From positions 124,540 through 188,539 of the forward strand of contig NZ_SDGY01000001.1 in the NCBI RefSeq assembly GCF_008107645.1: DNA of 64,000 bases, read 5' to 3'. The notes beneath the pieces are model-generated. The model did no database searches. It was given only the letters and a program-made list of their open reading frames with translations, and was not told the DNA's origin. Of this stretch, positions 47,564 to 53,411 are shown piece by piece. The position numbers and the translations under genes are program-made. Every line of letters starts with the position of its first letter. Positions within the stretch are counted from its first letter, which is position 1. Origin of the DNA: Leuconostoc litchii. Lineage in GTDB: Bacteria; Bacillota; Bacilli; Lactobacillales; Lactobacillaceae.

Positions 47564-47626
47564 ATATTACTTTAATTCAAATCTGGTAAAATGGTAATTG
47601 AAGACGTTAACAGAAAAGGGCAACAT

Positions 47627-48016
47627 ATGACACCAAGACGCGGTTTTTTTCAACCATTAGATTCAGCTGGTCAAATCGGCTGGTTGTGGTGGGGTATATT
47701 TTTTATGGCAAGTATTATTGTTTGGGGTGAGATGAGTTTTAAAATAACCATTTTACCAATGTTATTTGTTGCAATAATGATTTTATTAGGACTAGTATTA
47801 ATAGTCCGAAGGCGTGTTTATATGGCTGGCCCTAATCTTTTTTTAGGGCGAGTGTTGCTATCAGAATATGAAAAAATAGCACTACGAGATATTCAAAACT
47901 GGAAATTAAACGGACGCGTTTTATCTTTTGCTCGTGCTGATAGAGAACGAAAATATTTTTTGAGCAAAAATGTTGTGGAGCAAATTAAGGAATATATGAA
48001 CAATAATGACAAATAA
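47627..48016 (+). CDS. EbsA-like small membrane protein
   Basis: 129 residues with two membrane helices (about 20-38 and 42-60) followed by a soluble, basic C-terminal part (FLGRVLLSEYEKIALRDIQNWKL), a PH-like layout as in the Lactobacillales EbsA family. EbsA-family genes often sit beside RNase H-like and RluD-type genes, as here; the family has no firm function. The ATG at 47627 has AAAGGG upstream; the end overlaps the next gene by eleven bases. Confidence 0.55.
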   Translation: MTPRRGFFQPLDSAGQIGWLWWGIFFMASIIVWGEMSFKITILPMLFVAIMILLGLVLIVRRRVYMAGPNLFLGRVLLSEYEKIALRDIQNWKLNGRVLSFARADRERKYFLSKNVVEQIKEYMNNNDK

Positions 48017-48932
48017 AATATCAATTCACATAATAGAACAAATCGGGCGCGTCGACGCGGTATTGTCGAAAGAAAACTTAAATTATTCCCGTACAGCATT
48101 ATCAAATTGGCTGGATGACGGTCATATTTTAGTAAATAACAATCAAGTTAAACGTTCTTATAAAGTGACTGCAGGGGATGTTATTACGATAGTGCCGCCT
48201 GAAGTTGAAACAACAACAATTGCGGCAGAAAATATCCCTCTCGATATTGTTTATGAAGATAACGACCTTATTATTGTCAATAAGGCACAAGGAATGGTTG
48301 TGCATCCGGCTGCTGGGCATAGTTCGGGGACTTTGGTAAATGCCCTGTTGTATCATTCACCTTTATCAACAATTAATGGAGAATATCGTCCTGGTATCGT
48401 TCATCGTATTGACCGCGACACCAGTGGTTTATTGATGATAGCCAAAAATGATCAAGCACATGCTTCGTTGTCAGCTCAGTTAAAAGCACATAAAAATGAA
48501 AGAATATACTATGCATTAGTGAGAGGTGAATTTTCTGAAAATTCAGGTACGATTGACGCGCCAATAGGACGTCATAAAGTTGACCGAAAAAAGCAAGCTG
48601 TAATTGAAGGTGGTCGATTAGCTGTCACGCATTTTAGTGTTACAAAACGTTACGTAGGTTATACATTGCTTCAGGTCAAATTAGAAACAGGGCGAACACA
48701 TCAAATACGTGTTCATATGGCATATATTGGGCACCCAGTTATTGGAGATCCGGTGTATGGTTCTGTGCAAACGTTAAATGGTTTAAAACTGAATGGACAA
48801 TTATTACATGCTAGTACTTTAACATTAGAACAACCAACAACGGGGAAAACTTTATCATTTGATAGTCCATTACCAGAATACTTTGAAATCGCTTTGTCAA
48901 CATTAACACCTGTTGTTGAGGAGGAAAATTAA
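48006..48932 (+). CDS. RluA/RluD-family 23S rRNA pseudouridine synthase
   Basis: 308 residues. N-terminal S4 RNA-binding domain (about 12-75: [18 protein letters not shown]) and a pseudouridine synthase domain with [12 protein letters not shown] holding the catalytic Asp, then [12 protein letters not shown]. YlyB/RluD-like by overall pattern. Its ATG lies inside the end of the EbsA-like gene, with AAGGAAT upstream. In Firmicutes this gene commonly precedes pyrR, as seen here. Confidence 0.92.
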
Positions 48933-48933
48933 T

Positions 48934-49461
48934 ATGACGAATAAAGAAGTGTTAGATACCGCATCATTGCAACGAGCATTAACTCGAATTACTTATGAAA
49001 TTATTGAACGTAATAAGGGTGGTCGTAATTTAGTTTTAGTTGGTATTAAAACTCGTGGAGAGTATCTTGCTCATCGTATTGCGGACCGGTTGGAACAATT
49101 AGAAGGCGTGCAAATACCTGTGATGGCGATAGACATTACTAATTTTCGTGATGATCAACCAGACCATCACGAAAATTTGGGTTTGAACGAAGCTGAGAAA
49201 TTAAATATTTCTGAACAGAACATTGTATTGATTGATGACGTTTTATTTACAGGTCGCACTATTAGAGCTGCATTAGATGCTTTAATTCACATTGGACGAC
49301 CAAAAACAATATCGCTAGCTGTTTTAGTTGATCGTGGGCACCGAGAATTACCTATTCGTGCCGATTTTGTAGGTAAAAACATCCCAACCGCACAAAATGA
49401 AAAAATTAAAGTGTTTGTGCAAGAAATTGATGGAAAAGATTCAGTTGAGATTTTGCACTGA
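48934..49461 (+). CDS. pyrR: PyrR, pyrimidine operon attenuator and uracil phosphoribosyltransferase
   Basis: 175 residues. PRPP motif [17 protein letters not shown] (about 95-111), IKTRGEYLA and DITNFRDDQ are characteristic. PyrR binds UMP and pyr leader RNAs and triggers termination. GAGGAGG precedes the ATG, which is two bases after the pseudouridine synthase stop. No PyrR-type antiterminator structure is evident in the 71 bases before the CarA-like gene, so its targets may be elsewhere. Confidence 0.92.
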
Positions 49462-49532
49462 TTTTTGGCAATAAGAAACAGATAGTTTCGAATATGATCA
49501 AGTGGTATTGTATGTTTGGAGAATTATAGTTT

Positions 49533-50612
49533 ATGATTAGACATTTAATCCTAGAAGATGGTACAACTTTTGAAGGTCTTGGCTTCGGAGCACCAGCAAC
49601 CACATTTGGGGAAATTATTTTTCATACAGCCATGACGGGCTATCAAGAAATCATTACAGATCCAATCTATGACGGTCAGATGATTGTCTTTTCAATGCCA
49701 GTTGTCGGTGCCGCAGGTATTCATGCTGAAGCTTATGAATCTGTTAAACCCATGATACGTGGAATGATTGTGCATGATTTAGCTGAAGTTTCTGTGAATA
49801 GACAGAGACGTATGAATTTAGATCGCTTTTTGAAGCAACATAATATTCCTGGATTATATCAAGTTGATACGAGAAAATTGATTAGACATTTACGTGAAAC
49901 AGGGCCTCAAAAAGCAACTATTGTTGATTATGCCGACGATCATGCTGTTGATCAGTTAGTGGCCACGGTTTTAACAAATAAACAAGTTCAAAATACAGCA
50001 ACCTCTAAACCATATGCAAATCCTGGACGTGGGCGGCATATTGTTGTGATTGATTTTGGATTAAAACATGGTATTCTTCGTATGTTAGGCGACTATGACG
50101 CAAATGTTTCAGTTTTACCATATACAACCAGCGTTGATGAGGTATTAACACTTGACCCAGATGGTGTTATCTTATCAACTGGTCCTGGAGATCCCCGTTC
50201 TTTACCAGAAAGTGTCCTCACGCTAATTAGGGTACTTCAAACAAAAACACCTTTACTTGGTATTGGTCTGGGACATGAGCTTTTTGCGTTAGCAAATGAT
50301 GCAACACTTGTGCCACTTCCATCAGAACATCATGGTATGAATCATCCGATCCAAGAGATTATTTCTAAGCAAATTTTTTATGCGATGCAAGGGCAGGGGT
50401 ACGCGGTTGATGAAACTTTACTAGATCGTAAGAAATTATTTGTGACCTATCGAGACTTAGTAGATGGTGCTGTTCAAGGGTTGCGGCATCGAGATTATCC
50501 GGCCTTCAGTGTTCAATTCTTTCCAGATGCTGCACCAGGCCCCTATGAAGCAACAGCAGTATTTGCTGATTTTTTTGAAACGGTAGAAGATTATGTCGAA
50601 CATCACAGTTAA
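49533..50612 (+). CDS. carA: CarA-like protein lacking the glutaminase triad
   Basis: 359 residues, full CarA length: N-terminal domain (EDGTTFEGLGFGA, FHTAMTGYQEI, VDTRKLIRHLR) and a class I amidotransferase-like domain (LSTGPGDPRSL). The catalytic Cys (GICLGHQ in the family) is Gly245 (GIGLGHE), codon 50265-50267; the catalytic His (QYHPEA) is Phe330 (QFFPDA) and the Glu is Asp332; the GHRG loop reads EHHG. Glutamine hydrolysis by the known mechanism should be impossible. The ORF is intact and overlaps the CarB-like gene, arguing for a retained, non-glutaminase role such as a structural or regulatory partner. TTGGAGAA precedes the ATG. Confidence 0.85.
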   Translation: MIRHLILEDGTTFEGLGFGAPATTFGEIIFHTAMTGYQEIITDPIYDGQMIVFSMPVVGAAGIHAEAYESVKPMIRGMIVHDLAEVSVNRQRRMNLDRFLKQHNIPGLYQVDTRKLIRHLRETGPQKATIVDYADDHAVDQLVATVLTNKQVQNTATSKPYANPGRGRHIVVIDFGLKHGILRMLGDYDANVSVLPYTTSVDEVLTLDPDGVILSTGPGDPRSLPESVLTLIRVLQTKTPLLGIGLGHELFALANDATLVPLPSEHHGMNHPIQEIISKQIFYAMQGQGYAVDETLLDRKKLFVTYRDLVDGAVQGLRHRDYPAFSVQFFPDAAPGPYEATAVFADFFETVEDYVEHHS

Positions 50613-53100
50613 AAATATATTATTTATTGGTGCGGGATCAAATGATTTTGGTTTAGAGGCAGAGCATGATGCAGCTATTTATCAGGTTATGCCGGAATTA
50701 AAAGGCCATGGGATTAATGTATTTCTAATTGATGAAAACCCTTATGCGCTATCTCTTGAGAGTTTAGCTGCTGAAGCCATCTGGCAACCCCTAACTGTTG
50801 AAAATATTAAACATGTAATCAAGAATAATCATATTGATACAGTGCTACCTTTATTCGGCGGTACACGTGCTGTAAGATTATGGGCTACTACTGTTCAGCA
50901 ATGGGAGCATGGGGATGGACCAGTACCTAGAACCTTGGGTTTAAGTATTGATATGCTTTTACGTGTTAATAATCTTCCTAATTTGACAAGATATATGGCT
51001 GATGCAGGATTGCCAGTTCTTACGAGTCATGTGGTTAAAGCACAAGATGATGCTAATGAACTCTTAAGAGAGCTACAAATACCGTTGATGATTCGCTCTT
51101 TACATCCGAAAACGACGAACACACGTCAAATGGTGGAACGTCTTGATGAATTTGAAGAAGCTATTGATTATGCTAAGAAACAGTCTATGACTCAAGAAAT
51201 TATCATTTCCAAGGCAATCAACGGTTTAAAAGAAGTTAGTATGGAAATATTACGTGATTTTCGTGGTAACAAAATGAAAATTGGCGCCAGTGAAGATATG
51301 GATCCAATTGGCATCCATACAGCGGATTCTTTAAGTGTTGCACCCACACTAACTATTCAAGATCAAGTGCTGGAAAAAATGAGAACATATGCCTTTCAAG
51401 TTGCTGATTTATTAGGTTTACAAGGTATAATGCATGTGCAGTTTGCTTTTGATGATTCTACGGGTGCTATTTATATTATTAAGGTTTCACCATATGTTGA
51501 CCAAATGGCAAGTCGGATGGCGTTGGTCACAGGATATCCAGTTATGTTAGTTGCTATTAATTTGGCAATGGGTATTGCTTTGGAAGATATCGTTTTGCCA
51601 CATGATTTTGGCGAAAAAACTGCGATGATGGAACCAATGATGGATCATGTAGCAGTTAAACTACCTATTTTTCCGTTTGGAGAATTAGAAGAATCTGATG
51701 TATCGGTTAATCGTCAGCTGAATAGTATCCAAAAATCAGTTGGATCAACAATTGGCTTTGGACGAACATTTATTGAAGCTCTTGAAAAAGCAATACGCTC
51801 AGCACATTTCAATAATGCCACTTTTTCACCAACAAATATGGCACATATCAGTGATGATGCATTAATACAACAGCTGATTCATCCAGAAGACAATCGTGTT
51901 TTACTATTGATTGAAGCCATTAAACGTGGATATGAAATTGATGAACTAGCTGAATTAACTAATATTGATGAATTTTATTTTTACCAGTTAGGACATCTGT
52001 TACAGTTAGAATTAAAAGTAGAAAATGATGCTGATAGCATTGAATCATTAAGATTAGGTAAGCAATTTGGTCTGTCTGATGGTTTGATTGCGTTATTCTG
52101 GAATACAAATTTCACAAATATTAGATCTTTATCAAAAGAACATCAGATTGAAGCAACTTATAAAGCTTTGGAACCTTCTGCTGGGGAATTCCCTGAAAAT
52201 GCACGTCAATATTATTCAACATTTGAAGAAGAAAATGAATCTGTCCAAGTGAGTGATAATACAGTAATGGTAATTGGCAGTGGCGCATTTAGATTAGGAG
52301 ACGCTGCATCCGGGGGCTATGCAACAACCATTGTGTTGTCTGAATTGAGACGGCTTCAGTATCATACGATTATTATGAATAATAATGCTAATGACGCTAC
52401 ATTAATGCAAAATTTAGCTGACAAACAGTATCTAGAGCCACTTGAAATTTCTGACGTTATGAAAGTAGTTGAGTTGGAAAATCCAGTTGCTATTATTGTT
52501 CCTGGTAATCGACGTAAGCTAATTACAGCTTTGCGAGAGCTTGATCAAAATGTGCTCATTTTGCCAAAAGAGAAGCATATGCCTAGCGGACCAGTAGATG
52601 ATCGAACTGAATTTGCTTTAAATATTTTCTCAGATGGGCAGCAAATTTATCCTGTTAATATGACACAGCACGTTGCTGGAGAGTTGCGAATTATTTCTCA
52701 AATTATTGAACTGCCAAAGCAACTTGCACAAACTCATTTAGAAAATCCTGGGGTGTACCAGGTCATTTGGTATGAAAATGGACATGACTGGGTTGATCAT
52801 GTTGAAATATCTGATATTAGCTATGATACCTGGTTAAGACCTATGCCATTTGGTCAAGTAGCTTTTATTAGTAAAGTTATGCAAGTTCAATGGGTGAGAA
52901 TAACTGTCCGTGCATTATTGGGGCGTTTAACAGAACAAGATCAAAAGTTGTTAGAAAATGTTAATAAATTAACATTGCAAACAGATGTGAGTTTAGTAGC
53001 TGCTGATGTTAATTATGACTTACATCTACAGCCAATAGAGCCCATTGATGGTACACGTTTTGAATTAGGAGTTAACATTCAATATTATGACCAAAAATAA
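50593..53100 (+). CDS. carB: CarB-like protein: truncated, ATP-grasp residues lost
   Basis: 835 residues; normal CarB has about 1060-1075. Order: pre-ATP-grasp domain (ILFIGAGSNDFG, FGGTRAVRLW), ATP-grasp-like (about 120-400), oligomerisation domain (about 420-540), second pre-ATP-grasp (VMVIGSGAFRLG, about 560-660), then about 170 diverged residues instead of the carbamate-phosphorylating and MGS domains. The first ATP-grasp has lost its Gly-rich loop, and the metal/ATP residues of the IEVNPR motif read IKVSPY (K297, S299, Y301); Q283 and the HTADS His remain. It is therefore probably a pseudoenzyme. Its start overlaps the CarA-like gene by 20 bases. Confidence 0.85.
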   Translation: MSNITVKNILFIGAGSNDFGLEAEHDAAIYQVMPELKGHGINVFLIDENPYALSLESLAAEAIWQPLTVENIKHVIKNNHIDTVLPLFGGTRAVRLWATTVQQWEHGDGPVPRTLGLSIDMLLRVNNLPNLTRYMADAGLPVLTSHVVKAQDDANELLRELQIPLMIRSLHPKTTNTRQMVERLDEFEEAIDYAKKQSMTQEIIISKAINGLKEVSMEILRDFRGNKMKIGASEDMDPIGIHTADSLSVAPTLTIQDQVLEKMRTYAFQVADLLGLQGIMHVQFAFDDSTGAIYIIKVSPYVDQMASRMALVTGYPVMLVAINLAMGIALEDIVLPHDFGEKTAMMEPMMDHVAVKLPIFPFGELEESDVSVNRQLNSIQKSVGSTIGFGRTFIEALEKAIRSAHFNNATFSPTNMAHISDDALIQQLIHPEDNRVLLLIEAIKRGYEIDELAELTNIDEFYFYQLGHLLQLELKVENDADSIESLRLGKQFGLSDGLIALFWNTNFTNIRSLSKEHQIEATYKALEPSAGEFPENARQYYSTFEEENESVQVSDNTVMVIGSGAFRLGDAASGGYATTIVLSELRRLQYHTIIMNNNANDATLMQNLADKQYLEPLEISDVMKVVELENPVAIIVPGNRRKLITALRELDQNVLILPKEKHMPSGPVDDRTEFALNIFSDGQQIYPVNMTQHVAGELRIISQIIELPKQLAQTHLENPGVYQVIWYENGHDWVDHVEISDISYDTWLRPMPFGQVAFISKVMQVQWVRITVRALLGRLTEQDQKLLENVNKLTLQTDVSLVAADVNYDLHLQPIEPIDGTRFELGVNIQYYDQK

Positions 53101-53389
53101 ATATGAAACGAATCTATTTAATGGAGTAGTTGTTGAGCAAAATGCCTCAGGAGAGTATGTGCCCAAAAAAGGGTCTACCGTTCATTCTTGGCGAACAGGA
53201 AAGCATACTAAAGGACATTACAAACACTTTGGTCAAGTTTTTTTGACAGAAAATAATCAAAGTGTAGCTGTGATTTCAAAAGAAAATTTGGCTTTTAATG
53301 AGCGGCACAATTATGCACCGTTGCAGCGCTGGACTGATGCGGTAGCAGCAATTAAAGAATTGAATGTATATAAAAAAGATGAGTTGTGA
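53087..53389 (+). CDS. 100-residue protein co-translated with the CarB-like gene
   Basis: Starts 14 bases inside the end of the CarB-like gene, so translation is coupled. 100 residues, hydrophilic and rather basic in the first half (YVPKKGSTVHSWRTGKHTKG), with several aromatic residues, no Cys, no membrane helix and no motif I recognise. A strong terminator covers its last codons. Position suggests it binds or serves the CarA-like/CarB-like pair; function unknown. Confidence 0.65.
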   Translation: MTKNKYETNLFNGVVVEQNASGEYVPKKGSTVHSWRTGKHTKGHYKHFGQVFLTENNQSVAVISKENLAFNERHNYAPLQRWTDAVAAIKELNVYKKDEL

Positions 53390-53411
53390 GACCCATCTTT
53401 TTTATATACAT
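53364..53411. terminator. Long bidirectional terminator after the CarA/CarB-like operon
   Basis: Perfect 18-bp inverted repeat (53364-53381 with 53394-53411) with a 12-base loop; A- and T-rich arms serve this operon and the converging MFS gene. Confidence 0.92.

Follow-up and report, generated by a model that had tools for sequence, protein, structure and literature searches.

A carbamoyl-phosphate synthase-like gene pair with replaced catalytic residues is conserved beside pyrR in Lactobacillaceae and may take part in PyrR-based control

We analysed a 64,000-nucleotide stretch of the Leuconostoc litchii genome (the window) and found, next to pyrR, a two-gene relative of carbamoyl-phosphate synthase (CPS) in which catalytic residues of both subunits have been replaced and which is maintained under purifying selection in Leuconostoc. 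The conservation of shared replacements beside pyrR is better explained by a so far unstudied regulatory complex than by an enzyme in decay. Judged from sequence, the chance that the pair is a non-catalytic partner of PyrR-based control is roughly one in two. According to this proposal, an ancient CarA/CarB copy would have lost its capacity for both ATP chemistry and glutamine hydrolysis at an early stage of Lactobacillaceae evolution, a single loss being the simplest assumption, and would then have been retained with identical new residues. The two products, presumably inactive, would most likely still form a CarA–CarB type complex, as suggested by their fold and the overlap of their genes, and would assist PyrR in controlling pyrimidine genes, either as a non-catalytic partner or as a ligand-sensing module, both the binding of a ligand and an effect on PyrR being putative.

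The pair belongs to a packed run of plus-strand genes, opened by an ebsA-like small-protein gene (47591–48016; Pfam EbsA PF17255, 35.3 bits). This is overlapped by 11 bases by an ORF (48006–48932) that we take to be an rluD-like pseudouridine synthase gene. Next come pyrR (48934–49461, in an ORF from 48913; NCBIfam PyrR NF003548, 262 bits against a cut-off of 218) and, as the original prediction had described, two full overlapping ORFs: the carA-like gene for the glutaminase subunit (49533–50612, 359 aa; Pfam CPSase_sm_chain and GATase) and, with a 20-base overlap, the shortened carB-like gene for the large subunit (50593–53100, 835 aa; Pfam CPSase_L_D1, D2 and D3, but no MGS). A DUF7671 protein gene (53087–53389, 100 aa; Pfam PF24710, 124.9 bits) overlaps the carB-like gene by 14 bases, and the run is likely closed by a terminator, a 20-pair hairpin at 53364–53411 that was scored on the minus strand by consensus match only and has no strand assigned. 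A canonical carAB, whose presence alongside the pair had been named as a point to check, was found in the same genome, inside the pyr operon.

In alignment with Escherichia coli CarA, the nucleophile C269 corresponds to Gly245 (codon 50265–50267), the catalytic H353 to Phe330 (codon 50520–50522), S47 to I45 and Q273 to E249; S47 and Q273 presumably have a glutamine-binding role. For a residue census, odd-length and cut frames were left out beforehand and identical rows were merged, giving 98 distinct CarA-like proteins from 114 rows and 99 distinct CarB-like proteins from 112 rows (97 and 98, respectively, if N-terminal differences, mostly due to start choice, are disregarded). The C269G replacement was present in 98/98 CarA-like proteins, H353 was lost in 98/98 (never His), and Q273E and S47I were found in 95/98 and 90/98; C269, H353 and Q273 were kept in all 21 distinct canonical CarA proteins. 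Asp308 and Gln315 were invariant in the CarA-like set (98/98), at positions occupied by Glu in at least 90% of canonical CarA. Both the Gly for Cys and the Phe for His had been predicted correctly. A third proposed catalytic loss, D332, was rejected, since Asp is likewise present in 18 of the 21 distinct canonical CarA proteins (12 of the 21 being from Leuconostoc). The CarA-like protein of the window passes curated profile cut-offs (NF009475, 408.8 bits versus 221; TIGR01368, 360 versus 307.35), and a profile alone would thus label it an active enzyme, whereas the Cys nucleophile and catalytic His of an active glutamine-hydrolysing small subunit are absent. Metabolic models can therefore count a false CPS, chiefly where the dead pair is the only CPS-like pair.

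Compared with E. coli CarB, the Gly-rich loop residues G175/G176 of the large subunit are replaced by T174/T175, and IKVSPY (51478–51495) stands in place of IEVNPR, with K297, S299 and Y301 for E299, N301 and R303, both as originally noted. Among the 99 distinct CarB-like proteins, the metal-ligand E299 was changed to Lys or Arg in 99/99 and R303 to Tyr or Phe in 93/99; the first-site Asn was usually replaced and the Gly-rich loop was gone in most, while E215 and H243 were kept in 97/99 and 96/99. Canonical CarB kept E299 and R303 in 13/13 distinct proteins. The losses are thus common to relatives, and the recurrence of the main changes in 98 distinct CarA-like and 99 distinct CarB-like proteins indicates that the substitutions in the window are not due to chance.

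The predicted structure of the CarB-like protein (pLDDT 87.0, pTM 0.88) matches residues 1–929 of E. coli CarB (VIA Z 41.9, rmsd 2.8, 790 residues). Over this span it is approximately 94 residues shorter, and some 80 of the missing residues map to the second ATP-grasp domain (E. coli positions 667–768), where the alignment is rough. The allosteric MGS domain, the UMP-binding part of CPS, had no Pfam match in the window protein but was present in the canonical copy. The claim that the protein ends before the second ATP-grasp and allosteric domains therefore holds for the latter, whereas the former is present in shortened form. TIGR01369 scored 422.1 bits, under its cut-off of 1027, and its match reaches residue 641 only; the two intact ATP-grasp sites of an active large subunit are absent. 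Mean identity was 0.408 for the CarB-like protein versus 0.637 for the CarA-like protein, and the best-conserved part of the former was residues 400–650, a segment containing the oligomerisation domain (0.503, versus 0.423 and 0.243).

The pair resembles bacterial CPS (CarA/CarB, PyrAa/PyrAb) in its two subunits, gene order, fold and oligomerisation domain, and its place in the CPS fold family is supported by both the structural match and common descent in the CarA tree. It differs in having neither nucleophile nor catalytic His, in the reversal of the first-site metal-ligand Glu to Lys/Arg, in its shortened second ATP-grasp domain and in the absence of the MGS domain. Vertebrate CPS1 also has a glutaminase-like domain without the nucleophile and is still an active ammonia-dependent synthase. 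The likeness lies in the retention of a dead glutaminase part; in the bacterial pair, however, the synthase half is dismantled too, and an entire enzyme complex, not a single subunit, has apparently been turned into a non-catalytic device. The rebuilt pockets, such as the Gly-Leu-Gly-His-Glu turn or the Lys of the first ATP-grasp site, could instead perform other chemistry. Such a new enzyme would accord with replacements that are fixed, not random (Asp308 and Gln315), and with the retention of E215 and H243, but it is quite unlikely given the loss of the nucleophile, of the first-site Glu and usually Asn, and in most cases of the Gly-rich loop, together with the shortened second ATP-grasp domain.

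In an 83-row tree, 52 CarA-like rows formed one side of a branch with 100/100 support; the nearest rows were a CarA from a different Lactobacillales family and the CarA encoded beside the L. plantarum PyrR that lies outside the locus of the pair. The dN/dS of the CarA-like gene was 0.005–0.010, compared with 0.022–0.063 for canonical carA in the same five unsaturated Leuconostoc pairs, indicating stronger purifying selection than on the active enzyme in 5/5 measurable pairs. For the CarB-like gene it was 0.012–0.038, versus 0.018–0.038 for the canonical gene (seven pairs). These pairs share genomes and were drawn from 11 of the 19 Leuconostoc genomes, those with both loci fetched; the CarA-like gene of one genome (G008) was left out by the length filter, and pairs with the L. 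litchii genome were set aside as near or beyond synonymous saturation. These results support the predicted retention of a pseudoenzyme pair, with catalytic residues lost from genes that are under purifying selection.

Of the 201 Lactobacillaceae genomes in the sample, 109 carry the CarB-like gene, and these represent 21 of 40 genera, with food bacteria among them; carriers include Leuconostoc, Weissella and L. plantarum. In Leuconostoc the pair was present in 19/19 genomes, intact in 18 and broken in one. Broken copies occur in G004/L120, an L. inhae draft assembly in 890 contigs, in L168, where the copy is divided among four frames, and in G177, a 350-contig assembly whose copy has one TAG, as might be expected of a decaying relic or of annotation or assembly artefacts. 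This explanation is very improbable: a second L. inhae assembly (L106) carries an intact carB-like gene, the gene is widespread, and the selection result disfavours a relic across the family. At that level, decay and faulty assembly were thus rejected on the low dN/dS and shared substitutions. With three candidates scored per genome and matches listed from the best downwards, a search of 246 genomes of the order gave 16 full-length matches among the matches listed, all in Lactobacillaceae, and a search of 299 genomes of the phylum gave one among those listed, in the L. litchii genome only. The other matches listed end at about positions 623–650, nearly all in frames of more than 1,050 codons.

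As anticipated, gene neighbourhood favours a connection with pyrimidine regulation. Immediately before the carA-like gene lies pyrR in 72 of 80 named loci and rluD in 8, the latter in Paucilactobacillus and Limosilactobacillus; in the two of these eight genomes that were searched, PyrR is encoded elsewhere. The PyrR of the operon is the only close PyrR, with one close match in each of the 19 Leuconostoc genomes, and in L. litchii a PyrR RNA target (RF00515, 60.2 bits versus a cut-off of 54) precedes pyrB of the canonical pyr operon. A search for such a site at the locus of the pair itself found none. In the 201-genome sample all 109 carriers have PyrR, and none of the 10 PyrR-less genomes carries the pair; PyrR occurs without the pair in 82 genomes (191 less 109), indicating that PyrR works without it.

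A structural or moonlighting role apart from pyrimidines, for example with RluD and the ribosome or at the cell envelope, would make the PyrR linkage an inherited one. An RluD relative lies upstream in 79 of the 80 named loci, including the eight without adjoining pyrR, and the exception (L120) is at a contig end. We regard this role as doubtful, because RluD is absent before pyrR in L090 (genome G045), PyrR is kept in every carrier, and rluD precedes pyrR in other Firmicutes too.

Several observations run counter to a partnership with PyrR. Linkage and joint presence may mean no more than that a single stretch of chromosome was inherited vertically. The MGS domain is missing and the CarB-like protein is far less conserved than its partner; in addition, the locus has no PyrR RNA site of its own, and pyrR is not adjoining in eight loci.

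Most carriers also have canonical CarB, and either subunit could join mixed complexes with canonical CarA or CarB, tuning or blocking the active enzyme. The retained CPS fold and the high conservation of the oligomerisation-domain region are in line with this possibility, which we consider unlikely overall and improbable as a sole function, since 20 of the 109 carriers, including six of the seven in genus g16, lack canonical CarB (taken from single-match rows, with the best four candidates per genome scored). About 16 carriers lack both canonical CarB and PyrB. In favour of the tie to PyrR, 14 of these still have a site for it at E 0.01, and transporter or salvage genes follow the seven PyrR sites inspected in genomes that lack canonical CarB.

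L. plantarum has two PyrR proteins, one near canonical CarA and one at the locus of the pair. Its pyr operon is regulated by PyrR1 and PyrR2, and PyrR2 is reported as an inorganic-carbon regulator (PMC3582564). By elimination, the PyrR at the locus of the pair is PyrR2. The reported deletion of PyrR2 might have affected the pair as well, through polarity. A more specific form of the PyrR-partner reading holds that the pair, derived from a bicarbonate-using enzyme, senses CO2/bicarbonate (or carbamate or a phosphorylated metabolite) and signals to the co-encoded PyrR, thus being the missing sensor for this inorganic-carbon control. We consider this form unlikely. The pair is a concrete candidate for inorganic-carbon reading in the pyrimidine control of lactic acid bacteria. 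We take R303 to be the counterpart of the bicarbonate-binding Arg of biotin carboxylase, and its replacement by Tyr disfavours the simplest bicarbonate sensor.

The dead pair goes unmentioned in the portions examined of the literature on L. plantarum PyrR1/PyrR2 regulation, and a literature search whose coverage left out most subscription papers yielded none recognisable as dealing with it. The L. plantarum gene ccl, possibly carB-like and perhaps the gene described here, is reportedly non-essential, arginine-repressed and conserved in Firmicutes.

The suggestion that the pair is a scaffold for the downstream small protein is not supported as a general role, as the DUF7671 gene is present at only 28 of the 80 named loci (Leuconostoc, Convivina, Fructobacillus and two further relatives). 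No PDB match with E < 0.9 was obtained for DUF7671; its best VIA row was PriA (Z 6.3, 80 residues, 4.3 A), a resemblance that may reflect no more than a common arrangement.

The carbamoyl-phosphate synthase (CPS)-like genes carA* (49533-50612) and carB* (50593-53100) lie on the + strand within a tightly packed run (47591-53389) of the EbsA-like gene, rluD, pyrR, carA*, carB* and the DUF7671 gene, in this order. Three joints of the run overlap by 11, 20 and 14 bases, the pyrR-carA* gap is 71 bases, and a 20-pair hairpin follows the last gene. Elsewhere in the same genome (1.87 Mb in 13 contigs) is a canonical run, pyrB-pyrC-carA-carB-pyrF-pyrE, with a CarB of 1059 aa; CarA and CarB were named via Pfam, PyrB via TIGR00670 and the others by eye.

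Alignment with the E. coli subunits bore out the original prediction that key catalytic residues are lost in both proteins: CarA* of the window lacks the nucleophile, the catalytic His and two more glutamine-site residues (S47 and Q273, which we take to be glutamine-binding positions), and CarB* lacks both the Gly-rich loop and the metal ligands of its first site. These losses proved common to relatives when we compared 98 distinct CarA* and 99 distinct CarB* with 21 distinct canonical CarA and 13 distinct canonical CarB (E. coli numbering). C269 was Gly in all 98 CarA*, Q273 was Glu in 95, and H353 was replaced by Phe (89), Ser (7), Leu (1) or Asn (1), the Ser proteins coming from loci L064, L068, L087, L088, L090, L094 and L095 of genera g23, g26, g28, g32 and g36. 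Among the 99 CarB*, E299 was Lys (89) or Arg (10) and R303 was mostly Tyr (87) or Phe (6), while E215 (97) and H243 (96) were retained. All canonical CarA kept C269, Q273 and H353, and all canonical CarB kept E299, N301 and R303, in control sets weighted towards Leuconostoc (12/21 and 11/13, respectively). Wear of the first site was uneven between lineages, since some CarB* still had N301 (9/99), R306 (59/99), Q285 (77/99), G175 (21/99) or G176 (12/99), the last two in the Gly-rich loop.

CarB* was modelled with AlphaFold from 48 sequences (pLDDT 87.0, pTM 0.88), and the model superposed on residues 1-929 of E. coli CarB (Z 41.9, rmsd 2.8, 790 aligned). The earlier claim that CarB* ends before the second ATP-grasp domain was therefore too strong; its other part, the absence of the allosteric domain, held, as Pfam gave no MGS match in CarB* and one in the canonical CarB of the same genome. 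Across this span CarB* is approximately 94 residues shorter than E. coli CarB. By a sequence alignment that is rough in this region, approximately 80 of these are missing from the second ATP-grasp, between E. coli residues 667 and 768.

The pair was found in 109 of 201 Lactobacillaceae genomes and 21 of 40 genera (hand count), a carrier being a genome whose best CarB match scored better than 1e-110 and lay in a frame no longer than 901 codons; within the 21 carrier genera, only G186, a 76% complete genome, had no qualifying row. Apart from a few bins, the best 80 of 251 loci came from Leuconostoc, Convivina, Fructobacillus, Weissella, Periweissella, Furfurilactobacillus, Secundilactobacillus, Lactiplantibacillus, Paucilactobacillus and Limosilactobacillus. 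Among these 80, carA* was immediately 3' of the PyrR gene in 72 and directly preceded by RluD in the other eight (Paucilactobacillus, Limosilactobacillus); RluD was upstream of carA* in 79, the remaining locus being at a contig end, and carA* and carB* overlapped or lay at most 10 bases apart in 77. At L090, outside the 80, PyrR had no RluD before it. Outside Lactobacillaceae, nothing comparable appeared among the matches listed from 246 genomes of the order and 299 of the phylum. The pair was broken in L120 (a L. inhae draft) and L168 (Secundilactobacillus similis), perhaps through assembly errors; carB* was intact in L106, another L. inhae assembly.

In a midpoint-rooted CarA tree of 83 rows, the 52 CarA* rows formed one side of a long-stemmed branch (100/100), most simply indicating one origin of the pair. 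The nearest rows were L179, a CarA from another Lactobacillales family, and Lactobacillaceae CarA including L208, located close to the other L. plantarum PyrR; the identity of the direct sister is uncertain. The predicted selection on the pair was supported by dN/dS in unsaturated Leuconostoc pairs, which share genomes and represent three clusters of close species: CarA* had 0.005-0.010 in five pairs, where canonical CarA had 0.022-0.063, and CarB* had 0.012-0.038 in seven, where canonical CarB had 0.018-0.038. Across 14 representatives of 67 loci, mean identity was 0.684 for PyrR, 0.637 for CarA*, 0.632 for RluD and 0.408 for CarB*, placing CarA* at the level of RluD and slightly below PyrR, with CarB* looser. 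We conclude that there is strong evidence for a selected, doubly dead enzyme pair.

Each of the 19 genomes of the genus had one close PyrR match (85-100% identity), the remaining matches being at 19-26%. A predicted PyrR binding site (RF00515, 60.2 bits; L074:7581-7698, G000:C1:343580-343697) precedes pyrB in the canonical operon of the window's genome, which has no pyrR of its own, and the regulator therefore presumably acts in trans from the window. PyrR was present in 109/109 carriers, and the 10 PyrR-less genomes among the 201 were all non-carriers. A site was predicted at E 0.01 in 99 of the 109 carriers (hand count), some below the family's cut-off; genus g2 accounted for seven of the other 10. 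From linkage and co-occurrence we infer that the pair works with PyrR; vertical descent alone could give both.

Only L. plantarum EGD-AQ4, of six genomes searched, had two close PyrR, one in the dead-pair locus and the other on a contig stretch that also holds a canonical CarA. In PMC7911632, the L. plantarum genes pyrR1, pyrR2 and a carB are listed as lp_2704, lp_1782 and lp_2700, respectively, which by elimination makes the PyrR of the dead-pair locus PyrR2. The reported PyrR2 phenotype, regulation of pyr genes by inorganic carbon, and descent from a bicarbonate-using enzyme raise the idea of a bicarbonate sensor. We regard this idea as improbable, and the absence of R303 counts against it.

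With at most four candidates scored per genome, 20 of the 109 carriers had a single CarB match and thus no canonical CarB (G031, G033, G041, G045, G051, G061, G068, G070, G076, G092, G100, G101, G109, G149, G170, G172, G189, G194, G205 and G208). PyrB was present in four (G045, G109, G189 and G208), 10 were listed without it, five were missing from the matched rows, and the weak match of G031 (3.9e-41) was taken as the one under the cut-off. A PyrR site was predicted at E 0.01 in 18 of the 20. In seven genomes lacking both CarB and PyrB we inspected one site each, identifying five of the 3' gene products by Pfam and the others by likeness. G041 and G031 had uracil/xanthine-type permease genes after the site, G033, G070, G194 and G100 a nucleoside deoxyribosyltransferase-like gene and a cytosine-type permease, and G051 an MFS gene. 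The pair is therefore retained in genomes in which PyrR, judged by these seven sites, appears to control uptake and salvage instead of synthesis. Separately, L173 (Limosilactobacillus avistercoris) had CarA* as its sole CarA match at E 1e-30, and may therefore be annotated with a CPS it does not have.

The DUF7671 gene (53087-53389) followed carB* at 28 of the best 80 of 251 loci. Structure comparison of its confident model (pLDDT 89.2) gave no clear relative in the PDB, and its dN/dS of 0.070-0.188 in unsaturated Leuconostoc pairs indicates looser constraint than in the neighbouring genes.
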